From positions 1 through 33,285 of the forward strand of contig VMSP01000043.1 in NCBI GenBank assembly GCA_013792135.1: a stretch of DNA of 33,285 bases, given 5' to 3'. The position numbers were made by a program, and so were the translations under genes. This DNA comes from Desulfocapsa sp. GTDB lineage: Bacteria > Desulfobacterota > Desulfobulbia > Desulfobulbales > Desulfocapsaceae. How positions within the stretch are numbered: the stretch's first letter is position 1; every line of letters starts with the position of its first letter. Under the pieces are notes generated by a model that was given only the letters and a program-made list of their open reading frames with translations, did not search any database and had not been told where the DNA came from. Below are positions 15,324 to 33,285 of this stretch, piece by piece.

Positions 15324-15615
15324 GTTGAGGAAAGGGATTGGGGGTGCACTTAAATATTATAGTCTTGCTCTATCAGAGTCAATATTCTCCGAACATGTTG
15401 ACTCTGGTTCTGACTCACAAAATTAATATTGCCACATTGAATATTTGACAAGATCCAACTTTCCTCAGGTTGAGATGTCTACTGTATATACGAACCTGAT
15501 GAGTTCAGATATCTCAATATTATCGAAATGTTATCATTGCCAGTGCCAATGTACCACATCTTACTAATTGACTTTTTTTTCTTAAATTATAAACTGAAAT
15601 ATACAATTTAGTTTA
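15324..15615. promoter_or_regulatory. Spacer with inverted repeat, a direct-repeat copy and candidate promoter for the riboswitch transcript
   Basis: AGAGTCAA (15375-15382) and TTGACTCT (15398-15405) form an 8-bp inverted repeat without a T tract. A 23-bp block at 15470-15492 recurs at 16681-16703. TTGACT (15568-15573) with TATAAA (15589-15594, 15-bp spacing) could start the riboswitch RNA close to its first conserved base. No coding frame was recognised. Confidence 0.4.
15470..15492 (+). repeat. 23-bp direct repeat, second copy at 16681-16703
   Basis: Sequence TTGAGATGTCTACTGTATAT plus ACG; the copy at 16681 differs at one base (G for A). The two copies lie 1211 bp apart and enclose the riboswitch, the secreted-protein gene and its downstream hairpin. 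The second copy runs into the 168-bp repeat at 16690. Confidence 0.7.
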
Positions 15616-15684
15616 AGACAATGCCAAACCTGTTGTGAAGCAGAGACGGAAAACCACAGGTCTTTATAAGATAGCCGAGTTGCC
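15616..15684 (+). ncRNA. GEMM-I cyclic-di-GMP riboswitch aptamer
   Basis: The conserved GEMM-I parts appear in order: CCAAACC (15624-15630), a 5-bp hairpin CTGTT/AGCAG closed by a GNRA loop GTGA (15630-15643), GACGGAAAACCACAGG (near the consensus GACGCAAAGCCACGGG), a second hairpin GG-TCTT...AAGA-TAG-CC (15659-15676) and the closing GAGTTGCC. GEMM-I aptamers bind c-di-GMP at a three-way junction while the GNRA loop docks on the second arm. The outer stem (15623-15627 with 15680-15684) has one C-C mismatch where most examples have a pair. The closing strand is shared with a terminator, and a secreted-protein gene follows. Confidence 0.83.
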
Positions 15685-15711
15685 TTATGAAAGAGGCGAC
15701 TCGTTTTTTTT
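15676..15711 (+). terminator. Rho-independent terminator of the c-di-GMP riboswitch expression platform
   Basis: CGAGTTGCC (15676-15684) pairs with GGCGACTCG (15695-15703), nine pairs with one G-U, a 10-base loop and eight T right after. The 5' half contains the 3' strand of the aptamer's outer stem, so aptamer and terminator compete. Ligand binding should hold that strand and let RNA polymerase pass: a predicted ON switch. Confidence 0.83.
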
Positions 15712-15728
15712 AAAATATAGGAGGGAAC

Positions 15729-16520
15729 ATGAGCAGAACCTTAGCCCTGTATATGCTTTTGTATTTTATTGTCTTTCCAGGACGTGCCATGGCAGGCAAT
15801 ATATTGTTCGTCAACTACAACGGTAGTGACAACGGCATCCCGACCGCCATATCTACAGATGGCCATTCGGTCACTTCTGTCGATGTACCACCCGAAACCG
15901 CCAGCACCTACTTCCAGAGTGCCAATCTGAATCAATATTGCGCCGTCGTCTGGAGCGCCGCTTATGCTTACAACAAGGACGTTTCTGGAGCAGTCACCAC
16001 ATTGTCAAACTGGGTAACCTCGGGTGGGCATGTGTTAATCACGACGCCGGATGCAATTCGCCTTGATGGCGGCCTAATCAGCCTAATAGGTGGCTCTGGC
16101 GGTACTGACCAAGGGAACGGATACAGCACTATCGCAAACGTAGCCAATAGCGTTACAACTGGCTTATTCGATATACGTGGCCAGCAACCTTATGACGTTA
16201 CTGACGAAGACTCGCTTTGTGCTCCGCTCACCCCTGGCACGATTGGATTGGTTACCTCGGGGTCTACCGGGTGCCCATCCGAACCGGGCTACACATGGAC
16301 ACTCCGGACTTTGGGGTGCGGACAAGTGGCGTTCATTACCAGTGGAAATTTCAGTAGCTCCACAACCAACGATCCCGATTGGACTTTAACCACCATTCCA
16401 GGTCACGGCGTCTATAATGCGGGTTTGAGAAATTTTGTATATAATGCTTGCACAAGTCAGAACGCTTGTTTTCCGTGGAGCATGTTCTTGCCGGCAATGA
16501 CAAACATGGGAAAAAGATAG
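15729..16520 (+). CDS. Secreted protein of unknown function under c-di-GMP riboswitch control (ThuA/GATase1-like fold suspected)
   Basis: 263 residues from ATG 15729, with a strong AGGAGGGA ribosome site 18 bases after the riboswitch terminator. A signal peptide ends near residue 22 (FPGRAMAG). The mature protein starts NILFVNYNGSDNGIPTAIS and goes on to LNQYCAVVWSAAYAYN and LSNWVTSGGHVLITTPDAI. This is a strand, then D/C-A-V-V-W, then helix plus G-G-H-V-L-I pattern reminiscent of ThuA or glutamine-amidotransferase-like Rossmann domains, without a clear catalytic Cys-His pair. Five cysteines remain, four in the last third. The C-terminus is CFPWSMFLPAMTNMGKR. It is probably exported and made when c-di-GMP is high, so a surface, adhesion or matrix role is plausible, but I do not recognise the family. 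Confidence 0.75.
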   Translation: MSRTLALYMLLYFIVFPGRAMAGNILFVNYNGSDNGIPTAISTDGHSVTSVDVPPETASTYFQSANLNQYCAVVWSAAYAYNKDVSGAVTTLSNWVTSGGHVLITTPDAIRLDGGLISLIGGSGGTDQGNGYSTIANVANSVTTGLFDIRGQQPYDVTDEDSLCAPLTPGTIGLVTSGSTGCPSEPGYTWTLRTLGCGQVAFITSGNFSSSTTNDPDWTLTTIPGHGVYNAGLRNFVYNACTSQNACFPWSMFLPAMTNMGKR

Positions 16521-16564
16521 CATTCCCATTGCAAACCTTTACCAAATAGTAAGAATCATAAATT

Positions 16565-16605
16565 AAAGATTCTCTGCGAGAAGATATGCTTTAACGAGAA
16601 TCTTT
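16565..16605 (+). terminator. Hairpin after the riboswitch-controlled gene
   Basis: AAAGATTCTC (16565-16574) and GAGAATCTTT (16596-16605) are perfect 10-bp complements around a 21-base loop. It lies 45 bases after the stop. There is no long T run, so it may be a transcript-end stabiliser rather than a classical terminator. Confidence 0.45.
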
Positions 16606-16689
16606 GATCTTGAAGATTAGTTGATGTGTCTCGGTAGAGATTCGCACTGGCAGTCCTAACAGTTTGCCCATTTCCCCAAATTGAGGTGT

Positions 16690-16857
16690 CTACTGTATAT
16701 ACGTAATAAAATAACGATCGAGCTTATGGTATAATAAGGTCATCAACATCCTGTTTTTTCTATAAAAGAAGAAGGAGGACAGCATGGCCGCACAAAATAG
16801 TATATTCGAGAGTTTTTATCCCACCGATTGGAGTGACCCCACCCAATCATCTCAATC
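16690..16857 (+). repeat. 168-bp repeat carrying promoter, ribosome site and start of a small ORF; inverted copy at 28835-29000
   Basis: The reverse complement of 28835-29000 matches here with about five substitutions and a 2-base gap. The block includes TATAAT (16730-16735), AAGGAGG and the start ATG 16784 of a frame MAAQNSIFESFYPTDWSD. After 16857 the copies diverge: here the frame runs on to 17008 over the 3' end of the opposite gene, with no family resemblance. I take this as the 5' end of an unnamed element whose 3' end is the 12308 repeat. Confidence 0.78.
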
Positions 16858-28710: not shown

Positions 28711-29000
28711 GTGTTTCTTTTCGTATTTCACAGTATCTTCTATTGAATTTTATTCAAACAGGATTTTAGTAGAGAAAGATGTCCCTTGGAAAGATTCAAG
28801 CTCGTGCAATACAGGGTGACTTAACCTTTTTCGTGATTGAGACAATTGGGTGGTGTCACTCCAATCGGTGGGATAAAAACTCTCGAATAGACTATTTTGT
28901 GCGGTCATGCTGTCCTCCTTCTTCTTTTATAGAAAAAACAGGATGTTGATGACCTTATTATACCATAAGCTCGATCGTTATTTTATTACGTATACAGTAG
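28711..29000 (-). mobile_element. Internally deleted element containing both repeat ends and a 52-residue ORF
   Basis: On the minus strand it begins with the 16690-type block (28835-29000), with promoter-like TATAAT, AAGGAGG and ATG 28908. It ends with the 12308-type block (28711-28766). The frame between (28908 to 28750) is MTAQNSLFESFYPTDWSD..., then SQSRKRLSHPVLHELESFQG, then STKILFE and stop, 52 residues. Since the two ends also exist apart in the window, this copy looks like a deletion derivative of a longer element whose protein began MTAQNSLFES and ended ILFE. A true small gene is the alternative. I do not recognise the parent. Confidence 0.6.
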
Positions 29001-29027
29001 TAGTGGTGCGAGATTGGTTATGTTGTG

Positions 29028-29130
29028 TGTTTTCTTCTCTGTTTGCTTTTCTTCCCTCCTTTTGTAGTTCTTAATTTTTGTCTCTTCTTCCTCCTTTTTC
29101 TTTGGATTTTGTTCTTTTTCTTCCTGTTTG
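29028..29130. other. Pyrimidine-rich tract at the left edge of the RIT region
   Basis: About 100 bases are almost only T and C on the plus strand, apart from scattered G. The opposite strand would encode an Arg/Lys-rich tail (RKRRKKRQK), part of a 90-codon minus frame (29018-29290) that I do not believe to be a gene. Confidence 0.55.
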
Positions 29131-29159
29131 GCCGATAAGTACCGGGAAAGTACTCATAA

Positions 29160-29278
29160 CCAACAAAAGACCCGAAGTAACCACCACTTCGAGCCTTTTG
29201 TTGGACATCCCGTAAATACGGAAGCCCAACAAGCACCTTCATATATTCATGGCTTCCGTATTTGTTCAAGTACGGAAG
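29160..29278. repeat. Palindrome array in front of the RIT operon
   Basis: There are three stems. First, CCAACAAAAG (29160-29169) pairs with CTTTTGTTGG (29195-29204), with CGAAGT/ACTTCG inside. Second, AAATACGGAAGCC (29214-29226) pairs with GGCTTCCGTATTT (29251-29263), 13 perfect bases. Third, CTTCCGTA (29253-29260) pairs with TACGGAAG (29271-29278). Stems two and three share bases 29253-29260 and exclude one another; the third covers the sequence just before ATG 29280. TACGGAAG thus occurs three times, once inverted, as recombinase or regulator binding sites often do. Confidence 0.8.
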
Positions 29279-29279
29279 A

Positions 29280-29705
29280 ATGGAAATCATTCTACTGAAG
29301 ACTGTTTCGTGCAGTCGGTGTGCCAGGATTTTTTATATCTGCCAGAGCTGTTGGCGAGGGCAGGCCTATTGTTGTGATGCTTGTCGACAGGCATCACAAC
29401 GAGAAGCACACTGTCTGACACAAAGGAAATATCGCCAAACAGCAAAAGGTCGGGAGACCCACCGGCAAGCGGAAAGAAGGCGAAGAATGCACGATCCCGA
29501 AAAAACCGTGGCTGATACATCTTCAATACCTGCTATTGAACATGATAGATTACCTCCAGATCGCCTGTTTATCGTTCCTCGTTGCCATTTTTGCGGTGAA
29601 AAAGGTGTGGTTGTGGAACATTTTCCACGACGGGGCTATGGAAAAAGAAATTCAGTAACCAATATCAAGTCATTTTGTCATCCTGGAGGCGCACATGATC
29701 AATAA
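29280..29705 (+). CDS. Small zinc-finger protein at the head of the recombinase operon
   Basis: 141 residues from ATG 29280 (a TTG at 29262 is less likely). Two cysteine groups: CSRCARIFYICQSCWRGQAY then CCDACRQASQ (a zinc ribbon of CxxC pairs), and CHFCGEKGVVVEHF near the end. In between is a strongly basic helix (RKYRQTAKGRETHRQAERRRR). This looks like a DNA- or RNA-binding protein. It overlaps the next gene by 11 bases, and GGAAG before the ATG lies in a hairpin arm. I do not know a named function; association with the recombinases suggests a role in the element's transposition or its control. Confidence 0.7.
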   Translation: MEIILLKTVSCSRCARIFYICQSCWRGQAYCCDACRQASQREAHCLTQRKYRQTAKGRETHRQAERRRRMHDPEKTVADTSSIPAIEHDRLPPDRLFIVPRCHFCGEKGVVVEHFPRRGYGKRNSVTNIKSFCHPGGAHDQ

Positions 29706-30114
29706 AAACCCCCTTGTTAGCAATCGCATCAGGAAGATAGACGAAAGTTTTGCCTGGATCAGTCACAGCTTTCTTAGAAGGGGATTTTTTACCAGCCTCA
29801 CCCAAAATGAATTGCTCCTGTATTTTTTCCTGGTTCTTGTGGCCGATCGCCAAGGACTTTCCTATTACCACTATGACAAGATCTGCTCTTTGCTCTGTTT
29901 TTCTGTAGATGACTATATTGTTGTCCGCGATCAGTTGATAGAAAAAGACCTGATTGCCTTTGACGGCAACTTTTTTCAAGTCCTCTCTTTGCCGCAAATC
30001 ACTGTGAATCAATCCGCCAAGTTGCTTAAAAACCAAGACGACATGGAAACATTTGATCCTGCCACAATCAGGCAAATACTCCGCAGACAATTCAACCGTG
30101 ACCATGAATCATAA
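29695..30114 (+). CDS. Small helix-turn-helix-like accessory protein
   Basis: 139 residues from ATG 29695, overlapping the zinc-finger gene by 11 bases. The sequence FFTSLTQNELLLYFFLVLVAD, then SYYHYDKICSLLCFSVDDYIVV and DQLIEKDLIAFDGNFFQVLSLP has the helix/helix/wing order of a winged helix protein of replication-initiator or MarR-like shape. The tail (FDPATIRQILRRQFNRDHES) is basic. It overlaps the first recombinase start by 11 bases. Probable DNA-binding partner of the recombinases, by inference. Confidence 0.65.
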   Translation: MINKNPLVSNRIRKIDESFAWISHSFLRRGFFTSLTQNELLLYFFLVLVADRQGLSYYHYDKICSLLCFSVDDYIVVRDQLIEKDLIAFDGNFFQVLSLPQITVNQSAKLLKNQDDMETFDPATIRQILRRQFNRDHES

Positions 30115-31285
30115 GGATTCGAAAAGACTCTCGCAGGCAGTTGATCAATATCTCCTGCAGCGGATCGAACAGGGATATCCGGATACGTACGTCAACACTA
30201 AGTGCAAGATCCTTCAGCATTTCTGCCTTTTTGTGGAGCGGCAGCCAAAAGAATGGGACGAAATATTTACCCTTGAAATATTGAAAGAATTTATGCAGCA
30301 AGGCAACAGTAATGAACGACGACGCGCAGTTCGGGGGCTGGCAAAGTTCCTGTATCAACTGAAGCAAATCTCTCGTCCCATTCCGTTAAAATCAAGACAA
30401 AAACTACCGGGCATTTTTGAGGACTATCTGCATTATTGCGCCACTGCCCGTTATGATACAGAAAAAACGGCACAACATATCCGGCGAGTTCTCGAGGCCT
30501 TCTATCACTATCTGGGGCGGAATAATCTCAACCTTTCGGCAATAACCATAGAGAGAATAGACGCCTTCAATCAGGAATATAATGTAGCTTATGCCCGGCA
30601 GAGCCAAAAACTTAACCGGAGCTGCCTCAAGCTTTTCCTGAAATATCTATACAATGAGCATCGTGTGCTCAAACGCGACATTGCCGCATTGCTCAACCCT
30701 CCGCGAATATTTCATCGGACAAAAGCACCCTGTTTCCTGCGTACTGATGAAATCCAACAACTCTTTGATCACATGACACTTTCAACACCTGCGGACTTAC
30801 GAACCAATGCCATAATTCATATAGCGTATACTATGGGGCTGCGCCCTCAGGAAATTTGTAGACTAACCCTGGATGATATTCAATTCAGCAAGGCAGAGAT
30901 GCACATAAAACATCGTAAGGCCGGCTCCCCGGTCACGCTGCCAATTCCACTGAAGACACTCAAGGCTATTGTCGCCTATCTAGTCGGAGGACGCCCTGAG
31001 AATAACTATCGCGAGCTTTTCCTGCAATGCCAGCGTCCCAACGGGCCTGTCAACCAACCGAATGTGTCCTATGCCATAAAAACATGTATGCGGAAGGCTG
31101 GTTTGCCTAAAGAGGCTACCCCCTATCGGCTGCGGCACACCCATGCACAGCATCTGCTGGAGGCTGGAGTCTCTGTCTTTGAGATCAAGGAAATGCTTGG
31201 TCATGACGACATCGAGGCGACCAAAAGATATCTCCATATTCATATCAAACTCATGAAGAGGGTTATTCTTGGTGAACTCGTTTGA
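30104..31285 (+). CDS. ritA: Tyrosine recombinase, RIT first gene (RitA-like)
   Basis: 393 residues from ATG 30104, which overlaps the previous stop. An N-terminal SAM-like core-binding domain (about 75-190) and a C-terminal catalytic domain with R (GLRPQEICRL), K (HRKAGSPVTLP), RLRHTHAQHLLEAG, LGH and nucleophile Tyr in ATKRYLHIH. The first His of the usual HxxRH box is Tyr here (PYRLRH). An extra N-terminal segment of some 70 residues makes it the longest of the three, as in known RIT elements. It cuts and rejoins DNA through a phosphotyrosine. Confidence 0.9.
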   Translation: MNHKDSKRLSQAVDQYLLQRIEQGYPDTYVNTKCKILQHFCLFVERQPKEWDEIFTLEILKEFMQQGNSNERRRAVRGLAKFLYQLKQISRPIPLKSRQKLPGIFEDYLHYCATARYDTEKTAQHIRRVLEAFYHYLGRNNLNLSAITIERIDAFNQEYNVAYARQSQKLNRSCLKLFLKYLYNEHRVLKRDIAALLNPPRIFHRTKAPCFLRTDEIQQLFDHMTLSTPADLRTNAIIHIAYTMGLRPQEICRLTLDDIQFSKAEMHIKHRKAGSPVTLPIPLKTLKAIVAYLVGGRPENNYRELFLQCQRPNGPVNQPNVSYAIKTCMRKAGLPKEATPYRLRHTHAQHLLEAGVSVFEIKEMLGHDDIEATKRYLHIHIKLMKRVILGELV

Positions 31286-32258
31286 AAGTTTCCTGGCGGC
31301 ACAGATGGAAAGCTACTCCGAATATCGCTGTAGTCTTGGCTATTCCGCAGAAGCAATGGACAGTCTGAGGCGATTAGATCGTTACCTGGTAACGAAGAAT
31401 GTTACCACGCTCAAGACACTGACACCTTTCTTCTTTCTGCAGATGCGGACTGATCTTGCGATAAATCAGAATACAATAAATAGAGTAATCTATGCCTTGC
31501 GTGGCTTTTTTCAATATCTCGTACGGATTGAGTTCTGTCAGCATAATCCACTTGCCGGAATTCCCCGTTTCAAGGAAAACAACCTTATCCCTTTTATTTT
31601 CTCCGACCAAGAGAGTGAACATCTGCTCGAAGCAACATGGAGACAGGTTCGTAGAGAAAAACAGGCTTTCTTCCTCAAGGACATGAGTTGTTGCCTGGCT
31701 CTACAGCTTCTGGCGCGTTGTGGCTTGCGGATCTCTGAACCCCTGCGACTGAAACTCAAGGATTTTAGATCTGACGAAAGGACAATCTATATTAGAGAAA
31801 CAAAATTCCGTAAAGATCGTTTGATCCCCATCCCCATCCCTGTTGATGTAGCAAAGCATCTGTCGGATTACCTCTCCCTTCGCAACACCTTGCTACCTTC
31901 AGATAATCGGAATCCGTACCTTCTGGTCAGCGATCCCGTTAAGGGACTGCATAATCAACAAGTACGTAATTTTTTCCATCAGGCTGTTAGAAAAATCGGA
32001 CTTGCTCAACCCAAACGGGTTATCGGCAACACCAACATCAGCGCCCCAACCCCACACAGTCTACGGCATTCCTTTGCGGTCAACACCCTCAGGCGGATAA
32101 CAGCGAGAGGTGATTCGCCACAGAGTGCGCTTTCAGTTCTTGCGGTATACATGGGACACAAAAAATACACCTATACAATCTATTACCTCAAACTGATCGA
32201 TGCAGACCAGCGTCGGAATCTCGTTGATTTTATGACTACGTATCCAGCGAAGCTATGA
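31272..32258 (+). CDS. ritB: Tyrosine recombinase, RIT second gene (RitB-like)
   Basis: 328 residues from GTG 31272, with GAGGG ten bases upstream, overlapping ritA by 14 bases; TTG 31269 is an alternative. Catalytic residues are complete: R in ARCGLRISEPLRL, K in ETKFRKDRLIPIP, HSLRHSFAVNTLRR, MGH in VYMGHKKYTYT and Tyr in TIYYLKL. The N-terminal core-binding domain starts FLAAQMESYSEYRCSLGYS. It differs strongly from both neighbours, so the trio did not arise by recent duplication. Confidence 0.9.
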   Translation: MNSFESFLAAQMESYSEYRCSLGYSAEAMDSLRRLDRYLVTKNVTTLKTLTPFFFLQMRTDLAINQNTINRVIYALRGFFQYLVRIEFCQHNPLAGIPRFKENNLIPFIFSDQESEHLLEATWRQVRREKQAFFLKDMSCCLALQLLARCGLRISEPLRLKLKDFRSDERTIYIRETKFRKDRLIPIPIPVDVAKHLSDYLSLRNTLLPSDNRNPYLLVSDPVKGLHNQQVRNFFHQAVRKIGLAQPKRVIGNTNISAPTPHSLRHSFAVNTLRRITARGDSPQSALSVLAVYMGHKKYTYTIYYLKLIDADQRRNLVDFMTTYPAKL

Positions 32259-33274
32259 AACTTTCAGTCTGCATTCACCAATTCTTTGAGCAGTATCTAC
32301 CTCGGATCAAAGGGTGCGGGACCAATACGACCAAGAGCTACCGTGATGCCTTCTCTCTTTTTTTGCCCTTTGCCAGGGATACACTTGGAACTCCCATCGA
32401 TTCTTTGCAGGTTGAGCAACTCACCCCGGAACTGATTGTGAACTTTCTTGGTTGGCTCGAAAAAGAGCGGGAAAATGGTGCCAGAACCAGAAATCACCGA
32501 CTGGCGGCCTTAAAATCACTGGCCAAGATGATTCTCTATATGCATCCGAACAAGAGAGAGGTTGCAGAAAGGATATTGGATATTCCCAAAAAGCGTTACC
32601 ACAAAAATATAATCGGCTTTCTTTATCAGGAAGAAATTCTGGCTGTCCTTGATTCGGTCGATCTCACTTCAGCACAAGGCTTCAGAGATTATACCATCCT
32701 CCATTTGCTTTTCGACTCCGGTGCCAGGGCCAGCGAAGTGGCAACTCTCGACCTTGATTTTTTTGATCCACAGAAAAAAACGCTGGCCATTCTCGGTAAG
32801 GGAGGCCGCTTCAGAATGATAAATCTCTGGCCCAAAACGACAGATCTTCTTTGCCAGTATATCAAGAAGTACCGGATTATACAGCATACTCTCTATCGGA
32901 ATCGTTTGTTTCCCAATCAGCAGGGAAAGGAATTTACCCGGCACGGAATATATCGGCTCTGTCGAAAATATCTGGAAAAAGTCCTGCCGGTAAAACGGTT
33001 GCAAGACATCAATCCTGCCCACAGTTTCAGACATTCCTGTGCGGTAAATATGCTCTTGGCCGGTCACCCCATATCTGACATAAAAAACCGTCTCGGTCAT
33101 GAAAGCGTAAATTCAACAATGGTCTATCTACATCTTGATTTAGGGCACCGACAGCAGATCCAGAAAAAATTTATCACCTACACACAGTCACTGACCAATC
33201 AAGATGACAAGATAGATGAATTGATCGACTGGAAGAACAAGGAGGAAATTTTAAATTGGCTTGATAGCCTTTAG
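32255..33274 (+). CDS. ritC: Tyrosine recombinase, RIT third gene (RitC-like)
   Basis: 339 residues from ATG 32255, overlapping ritB by four bases (ATGA). Catalytic residues: R in DSGARASEVATL, K in LGKGGRFRMINL, HSFRHSCAVNML, LGH in NRLGHESVNST and Tyr in MVYLHLDLGH. It resembles XerC/XerD in the catalytic half. The stop lies 11 bases before the window end, so the right terminus of the element is not visible. Confidence 0.9.
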   Translation: MKLSVCIHQFFEQYLPRIKGCGTNTTKSYRDAFSLFLPFARDTLGTPIDSLQVEQLTPELIVNFLGWLEKERENGARTRNHRLAALKSLAKMILYMHPNKREVAERILDIPKKRYHKNIIGFLYQEEILAVLDSVDLTSAQGFRDYTILHLLFDSGARASEVATLDLDFFDPQKKTLAILGKGGRFRMINLWPKTTDLLCQYIKKYRIIQHTLYRNRLFPNQQGKEFTRHGIYRLCRKYLEKVLPVKRLQDINPAHSFRHSCAVNMLLAGHPISDIKNRLGHESVNSTMVYLHLDLGHRQQIQKKFITYTQSLTNQDDKIDELIDWKNKEEILNWLDSL

Positions 33275-33285
33275 GGGGCTTCTTG

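Follow-up and report, generated by a model that had tools for sequence, protein, structure and literature searches.

The window analysed here is contig VMSP01000043.1 of Desulfocapsa sp. (assembly GCA_013792135.1, positions 1 to 33,285 of the forward strand), a complete contig (C3) of a 186-contig genome, whose 3′ end is occupied by five open reading frames (ORFs) on the plus strand, consecutive frames overlapping by 11, 11, 14 and 4 bases (Table 1; L, G and C numbers are our handles for loci, genomes and contigs). The first-pass annotation had described this run as a zinc finger gene, a winged-helix gene and three tyrosine recombinase genes of the recombinase in trio (RIT) type, and the run is present as claimed, the 14-base overlap applying to a GTG start of ritB at 31272 (17 bases with the alternative TTG at 31269). 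The zinc finger ORF opens with a TTG at 29262, ahead of the ATG retained in the table. A genome search for the same five-gene order recovered it in G034 (L025), where all five proteins are 70–79% identical to those of the window, and again in L208 (71–82%); because the full order recurs, the arrangement is not a matter of chance, and the relatives described below likewise rule out the zinc finger and helix-turn-helix (HTH) genes as chance neighbours of the trio. Overlap is not universal in these relatives, since the match to the HTH gene, or to a CHC2 gene, ends anywhere from 47 bases inside to 73 bases before the RitA match. Taking anatomy and recombination model together, we consider it probable on comparative grounds that the run belongs to a RIT-derived mobile element of about 4.47 kb.

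Table 1. Features of the element and of its target in the window
Feature	Position	Strand	Basis or remark
6-base core CAGTAG, left end, candidate crossover region	28995-29000	+	Same core at both ends of relative L045
Outer left half-site TAGTGGTGCGAGA, a degenerate TTATGTTGYGAGT	29001-29013	+	Alignment to the left ends conserved among relatives
Inner left half-site TTATGTTGTGTGT, 17 bases inside the outer	29018-29030	+	Same 17-base spacing in canonical RIT ends
Inverted repeat / terminator-like hairpin in leader	29160-29204	.	Inverted repeat I4
Accessory gene 1, small zinc-finger protein, type Z1	29280-29705	+	ATG start; Z1 profile match 29280-29642
Accessory gene 2, winged-helix (HTH_36-like) protein, 139 aa	29695-30114	+	Weak Pfam match and model
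RitA-type tyrosine recombinase, 393 aa	30104-31285	+	Best RIT match RitA; two N-terminal helical bundles (model)
RitB-type tyrosine recombinase	31272-32258	+	Best match RitB in 3 reference RITs; R, K, HxLRH, GH, Y present
RitC-type tyrosine recombinase, 339 aa	32255-33274	+	Best match RitC in 3 reference RITs; catalytic residues conserved
Start of right terminal region	33275-33285	+	Last 11 bases of contig
Empty target site, paralogue of left flank (28835-28994), through one CAGTAG (16690-16695)	16690-16857	-	97% identity over 160 bases

The Pfam Phage_integrase domain was found in all three large proteins (4.7e-34, 3.4e-20 and 7.8e-24). By BLAST and profiles, proteins A, B and C match RitA, RitB and RitC best in each of three reference RITs, taken from plasmids of Cupriavidus necator (pHG1), Sphingobium herbicidovorans and Rhizobium leguminosarum. 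The resemblance is distant, RitA being 19–27% identical to three RitA-type proteins and RitC about 30% to its references. The catalytic R, K, HxxR, H and Y are present in RitB and RitC, and RitA has a Tyr for the first His of HxLRH / HxxRH; orthology and catalytic residues together bear out the RIT-type assignment of the trio. According to the published accounts, drawn on here in excerpt, RIT genes are adjacent and overlap by 4–8 bases (PMC3414803), RitA carries two sequential core-binding domains and RitC an extra C-terminal helix (PMC8138268). In the window the three genes are adjacent in the order RitA-RitB-RitC and overlap, the 14 bases of the first overlap exceeding the published range. 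The structural model of RitA (pLDDT 83, pTM 0.48) predicts helices at residues 3–85 and 103–185, that is two bundles ahead of the catalytic domain, as read off the secondary structure without superposition; RitC runs, by its sequence, 48 residues beyond the catalytic Y291 and ends in a conserved WLDSL or WLDTL. Gene order and orthology, overlapping genes and a two-bundle RitA are thus the likeness to RIT elements (PMC3414803, PMC8138268, PMC10214605), to which the left end adds TTATG-type half-sites 17 bases apart, as in the canonical S. herbicidovorans RIT. The differences lie in size (about 4.47 vs. about 3.5 kb) and in the ends: those of window-type elements are asymmetric and repeat the core directly, those of the canonical copies examined form an inverted repeat. 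RITs have terminal inverted repeats of 28–34 bases; here 13-base outer half-sites are inverted and an inner half-site is clear on the left only. RITs also have three coding regions only, and because two more genes lie within the ends here, we call the element RIT-derived rather than a canonical RIT. A tblastn search of the window with IstA and IstB, bearing on membership of the IS21 family, gave no match.

The two small proteins are recognised less directly. Neither the HTH protein nor the Z1–Z3 zinc finger proteins scanned gave a Pfam match at gathering level, and the two proteins of the window gave none in NCBIfam. The HTH protein matches HTH_36 weakly (1e-4, below the cut-off of that family); its model (mean pLDDT 74, reaching 85–95 over residues 31–100) has generic winged-helix neighbours in Foldseek, among them MarR- and CRP-type regulators and Rep initiators, all above an E-value of 0.001, and one distant relative was found in IMG/VR (L277). 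The zinc finger protein, without a Pfam family, was recognised from its cysteines and its relatives, and gave a single weak PHROGs match of unknown function (E 0.0028).

A search with RitB found close trios in 4 of 395 genomes of the phylum, the source genome included, and a contig scan with a RitC alignment gave 85 relatives, of which 80 were kept and about 50 are close. Trios with readable upstream DNA, defined by a RitA match above 200 bits with more than 300 bases before it, number 44. Both copies from Desulfosarcina alkanivorans (L053, L093) are counted and duplicates removed (L209 = L089, L210 = L045, L025 = L083, L038 = L061, L039 = L067, L040 = L080); L046, L049, L050, L052, L056, L070, L077, L081, L084 and the distant L091 and L094, having no such match, fall outside this set, as do L096 and more distant loci. 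A small DNA-binding-type gene precedes ritA in 43 of the 44, an HTH gene in 39 and a CHC2 gene in four (that of L075 encodes a protein matching PF01807 at 8e-8, above the cut-off); the exception, L082, is a decayed trio with 574 bases upstream. The first gene is present in all 38 trios in which it could be judged (L048, L062, L068, L082, L085 and L087 being left aside), although broken in some, e.g. L045, L060 and L069. By profiles 15 of the 38 are of the window type Z1, 14 of type Z2 and six of type Z3, and three, read by eye, are of other kinds (L061, L069, L078). In L096 no HTH gene was found by tblastn. In the canonical RIT copies L125 and L126 the shared left end lies only 143 bases before ritA, with no such genes between. 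Among plasmids, the window HTH protein matches six records (E 1e-5), all from Caballeronia, the one inspected sitting before istA; RitA matches 961 records (E 1e-8), many of which must be other integrases because only 83 matches extend over at least 80% of the protein. Judged by their relatives, the small genes are part of the element. Related trios, far from consistently lacking them, carry them with regularity, and the distinct subtype proposed in the first-pass annotation stands in so far as the related trios consistently have two upstream small genes and the canonical copies none; it does not stand in so far as the helpers are not confined to RIT elements, as described below.

Between the Z2 gene and the HTH or CHC2 gene there are also three direct repeats about 69 bases apart (e.g. 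GATTGCAAAGATGGACGC); both RIT and IS21 elements have them. Such arrays occur at L054:695-840, L086:3246-3391 and L080:878-1039 and, on the minus strand, in L026 and L027, that of L080 being non-coding; the repeat sequence differs among elements (L059, L063, L092, L095) and the spacing remains near 59–78 bases. The sequence ATTGCAAAGATGGAYGC was considered as a genome-wide repeat and rejected, as it occurs exactly in 2 of 58 genomes, at three places, all on contigs of the IS21 elements considered here.

The ends of the element were defined by comparing flanks among relatives. In the subfamily the left end generally consists of a 6-base core followed by TTATGTTGYGAGT and, 17 bases further in, a second half-site; the right end consists of ACTCGCAACATAA followed by the same core and lies about 186–200 bases after ritC in most elements, and 244–311 bases after it in the four CHC2 elements. 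Sixteen elements agree with at least 20 of 25 scored positions on the left and at least 10 of 13 on the right, the others showing one end only or being cut. The core is identical at both ends in 14 of the 16, with eight different core sequences among them. The first bases beyond the core in the right flank often read NNATC across relatives, which by eye is a weak half-site. The left half-sites of the window agree at 20 of 25 positions over both, so that the element begins at about 28995 and not, as given in the first-pass annotation, at 29160, where an internal hairpin lies (Table 1). A terminator-like stem at 29173–29191 is part of that hairpin, one having been found against 0.6 expected in shuffled sequences, and L053 has a hairpin, GCCCGAAG..CTTCGGGC, at the equivalent position; no sigma-70 promoter was found within 28900–29400.

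The right end is missing from the window because the contig stops 11 bases after ritC. Flank comparison, which had been recommended for finding the ends, fixed the left end and the core, the right end lying on another contig. Two contigs of the same genome, C59 and C10, carry right ends that read CAACATAA-CAGTAG. The first 141 bases of reversed C59 are the last 141 bases of the window, and C10, with a second right end, differs from them at two positions. Contig C59 appears to continue the window, in which case the right half-site and core would occupy 33450–33468 (the core 33463–33468) and the element would measure 4474 bases with both cores. Evidence bearing on mobility comes from the D. alkanivorans chromosome, where L053 and L093 lie at different places with unrelated flanks and differ by three mismatches over 4493 bases. 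The idea that the accessory type sets the core found no support, since L095 (Z2) and L045 (Z1) share CAGTAG. Two further observations concern ends: the contig L076:1-4798 runs from one element end to the other, as a circular form or a collapsed repeat would; and the identical canonical copies L125 and L126 share a palindromic stretch with TTATG/CATAA half-sites about 36 bases past the right end, the outer six bases at their two ends looking inverted rather than direct.

The flanks also lead to the target. The 160-base left flank of the element is a repeated sequence, with copies at least 93% identical in G007, G011, G015 and G016 of the same genus, and a further copy in the window itself (16698–16857, minus strand) continues into a single CAGTAG. 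This empty site reads ...TTACGTATATA-CAGTAG-ACACCTCAATTTGGGG, the occupied site reads ...TTACGTATA-CAGTAG on the left, and the right flank on C10 reads CAGTAG-ACATCTCAACCTGAG. The same left flank followed by CAGTAG-ACA, with no element, is found in L264 (G011) and L263 (G015), so that the search for empty sites advised in the earlier annotation succeeded both within the window and beyond it. Comparison of empty and occupied sites indicates that the target holds the core once and that the inserted element has it at either end. The stop-to-stop frames across the joined flanks of nine elements were short or unconvincing, and we claim no interrupted gene. Elsewhere in the window, at 15479–16695, two CAGTAG-ACA(C/T)CTCAA sites lie in the same orientation 1211 bases apart, and the cassette-like stretch between them holds a c-di-GMP-I riboswitch (15613–15687) and an ORF of 263 aa (15729–16520). 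In L257–L276, from the same genus, a dispersed repeat follows CAGTAG on the right and several different sequences precede it on the left, as would be expected of a frequent recombination joint.

The helpers themselves are found mostly with other transposons. Among 25 places with the HTH gene in the 395 phylum genomes, only four are at a RIT trio and 18 at IS21 elements (10 IS21b, 7 IS21a and one further IS21, IS21a and IS21b being labels coined here for two groups); the remainder are one IS110 element, one truncated HTH gene without a transposase after it (L177) and one uninspected place (L153). In 257 genomes of the class there are 42 such places: six RIT, 11 IS21b, 16 IS21a (six of them belonging to one element in G051), two other IS21, one putative transposase and six uninspected (G499, G579 twice, G546 twice, G496:C356). 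Small genes occurring mostly without the trio had been named as evidence against the five-gene subtype, and for the HTH gene this is what the counts show. The pair lies inside the IS21 ends in six copies in G051 (0 mismatches) and three in G519 (at most one); the six G051 elements, considered as copies of the window element, proved to be IS21 with the same accessory pair. In single cases a Z2 zinc finger gene and an HTH gene stand just upstream of an IS110 transposase (L173:1949-4233, minus strand; PF01548, 3.8e-39), and one run (L216:392-4113) consists of a Z1 gene, an HTH gene and genes for three further proteins: one of 191 aa that weakly matches a partition protein, a putative transposase of 585 aa (its class guessed by eye, with no Pfam match at 0.001) and one of 248 aa that weakly matches AAA. 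The five genes are, as far as comparison reaches, a trio plus a portable module and not an indivisible five-gene system. IS21-like operons in L228 (plasmid pHRM2a) and L212 contain an extra gene weakly matching KorB or Noc, and pHRM2a also has a CHC2 gene after istB; on a Rhizobium tropici plasmid (L130:1697-7495) a canonical RIT is flanked by two transposase fragments, with istB after them, apparently sitting within an IS21 element.

A tree of 59 HTH proteins (omitting L048, L064, L085, L090, L177, L178, L093 and L024) requires seven changes for the RIT rows and six for the IS21b rows, of which well-supported branches force at least three and at least two, respectively. The AU test rejects a single clade both for the RIT-linked HTH proteins (p 7e-7) and for those of IS21b (p 5e-5). 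These phylogenetic comparisons show that the winged-helix gene has moved between RIT elements and insertion sequences of the IS21 family, and it is consequently unlikely to require any one strand-exchange chemistry. The first gene is likewise variable: on a RitA+RitB tree of 35 trios (omitting L069, L090 and L093) the types Z1–Z3 need 10 changes. Z1 is clustered, with 6 changes, a figure as low being reached in 1 of 500 shuffles; Z2 and Z3 are hardly so (125 and 145 of 500). Replacement is clearest in L095, whose first 105 bases share 87% identity with the window and which reaches 89% over 2447 bases from about 29950, the latter stretch running from the middle of the helper gene to the end of the L095 contig early in ritC. 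Between the matching stretches there is no BLASTN match; there L095 has a Z2 gene and an HTH gene whose head has diverged more from the window (57 of 85 residues identical) than its tail (41 of 52).

Several known systems invite comparison. IS21 elements with the zinc finger and HTH pair have a homologous HTH protein (49–67% identical in the nearer group IS21b) and a zinc finger upstream of istA-istB, but they rely for mobility on IstA and the ATPase IstB instead of tyrosine recombinases. Xer/dif half-sites are of the form ATAA-N6-TTATG, and on this dif sequence they resemble the window-type half-sites; the element differs in encoding its own recombinases and, in D. alkanivorans, in lying at different chromosomal places. 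Strand-biased circularizing elements (SEs) and Tn554, as far as the excerpt of PMC10214605 describes them, have several recombinases, a small auxiliary (Srap, TnpC) and a 6-bp footprint, all of which recall the present element. Here, in contrast to Tfp, all three recombinases keep catalytic residues, and the auxiliaries lie upstream, one with zinc finger cysteines; judged by that description, gene order and three catalytic recombinases argue against the SE gene set (IntA, Tfp, IntB, Srap).

We propose that the three recombinases would recombine the two ends around the 6-base core between half-sites. Excision would probably proceed via a circle with the joint ACTCGCAACATAA-core-TTATGTTGYGAGT, and integration would take place at a chromosomal site where the same core lies between weak half-sites. 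The small proteins, whose genes would be translated first and coupled to ritA, may bind element or target DNA and help to assemble or regulate the recombination complex. As the helpers accompany IS21 too, their role is more likely to be at the level of DNA or expression than in strand exchange. Whether they form a portable DNA-binding module that aids or regulates the recombination complex, by analogy with GinD or TnpC, is to us an evenly balanced question. A wider reading, which we hold with about the same half-confidence, is that transposons of unrelated chemistry (RIT trios, the DDE transposases of IS21, perhaps the DEDD transposase of IS110 and an ATPase-assisted transposase) draw on a shared pool of interchangeable modules, each of two genes for DNA-binding proteins (a zinc finger with a winged helix or a CHC2 zinc ribbon). 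Such a module would act as a plug-in head that sets where or when an element moves and would be swapped as a cassette, the recombinase being kept.

A number of observations weigh against this picture. The evidence is wholly comparative, excision, circle and transposition not having been seen, and the helper role is a prediction from comparison. The outer left half-site of the window is degenerate, with TAGTGGTG for TTATGTTG; the cores of 2 of the 16 elements are mismatched, at one base in L072 and throughout in L071; and the occupied flank is two bases shorter next to the core than its paralogue (GTATA vs. GTATATA). The pairing of the left end with C59 instead of C10 depends on a 141-base assembly overlap, and the flank on C59 reads GAAGG, without the ACA that follows CAGTAG at the empty sites and on C10. 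As for the helpers, L095 keeps the core CAGTAG, so that the helper head seems not to set the core, and IS21 and RIT elements have similar HTH protein tails (20 of 37 residues between the window and L167), which show no sign of a partner-specific contact. Finally, the HTH tree includes a long branch, L027, and its bootstrap had not converged.

The small proteins might alternatively be an autoregulatory pair that represses or times transcription of the operon with no part in recombination, a possibility we consider real but doubtful. Their genes stand first in the run, the HTH model has MarR- and CRP-type regulators among its neighbours (together with Rep initiators, none at an E-value of 0.001 or below), Z2-type elements carry three operator-like repeats about 69 bases apart just upstream of the HTH gene, and autoregulation would account for the sharing with IS21. 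On the other hand, the Z1-type element of the window has no such repeats, the several exchangeable families at each position (Z1–Z3 and others; HTH or CHC2) exceed the needs of a simple repressor, and a DnaG-type zinc ribbon is no usual repressor. A second alternative, to which we would give a comparably low weight, concerns the copy in the window, which may be a fixed remnant, immobile in the source genome: there is a single HTH copy in the genome, the outer left half-site is degenerate as noted, and a loose pattern found no second left end, although it missed the left end of the window too. Yet all five frames are open, C10 holds a second right end, and the contig break after ritC suggests repeated sequence. 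It is improbable that the small genes act on the host (e.g. in anti-silencing or at the replication fork) as passengers useful to any element. The range of partners (many IS21, RIT, one IS110 and one other putative transposase) fits such passengers, as does the resemblance of extra genes in some IS21-like operons to partition or replication proteins, with CHC2 above its cut-off and KorB-, Noc- and borfam-like matches below theirs; but no host target is known, and the small genes overlap the recombinase genes in the window, which suggests a fixed ratio to them. Least of all do we expect a GInt-like island with cargo, since GInts, which share the logic of three tyrosine recombinases with a small DNA-binding-like protein in four genes, ginA-ginB-ginC-ginD, all of them essential and GinD resembling TnpC (PMC5385486, in excerpt), have the helper last and a GinC without the first arginine, whereas here the helper genes come before the trio, the main catalytic residues are retained in each of the three recombinases, and cargo has no room in the roughly 190 bases between ritC and the right end.

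A portable helper module attached to a site-specific, RIT-derived element is thus the reading we prefer. For RIT elements the excerpt of PMC3414803 drawn on here describes no convincing sites beyond the inverted repeat and a palindrome, and in the titles and abstract openings of the open-access papers listed by our searches (subscription papers being outside this scope) we found no report of a RIT with these helpers or of the module in IS21. What seems new from the comparisons is that a RIT-type element now has its ends, core and empty site defined, that its accessory genes are conserved and modular, and that they are exchanged with IS21. How the three recombinases of RIT elements cooperate, where the elements end and how targets are chosen have so far been open questions; with ends, 6-base core, empty site and auxiliary genes defined, excision, the circle and the need for each gene become directly testable. 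That auxiliary genes are common to RIT elements and IS21 is unexpected and suggests a function independent of the mode of DNA cutting, a hint that bacterial mobile elements may use interchangeable helper parts.

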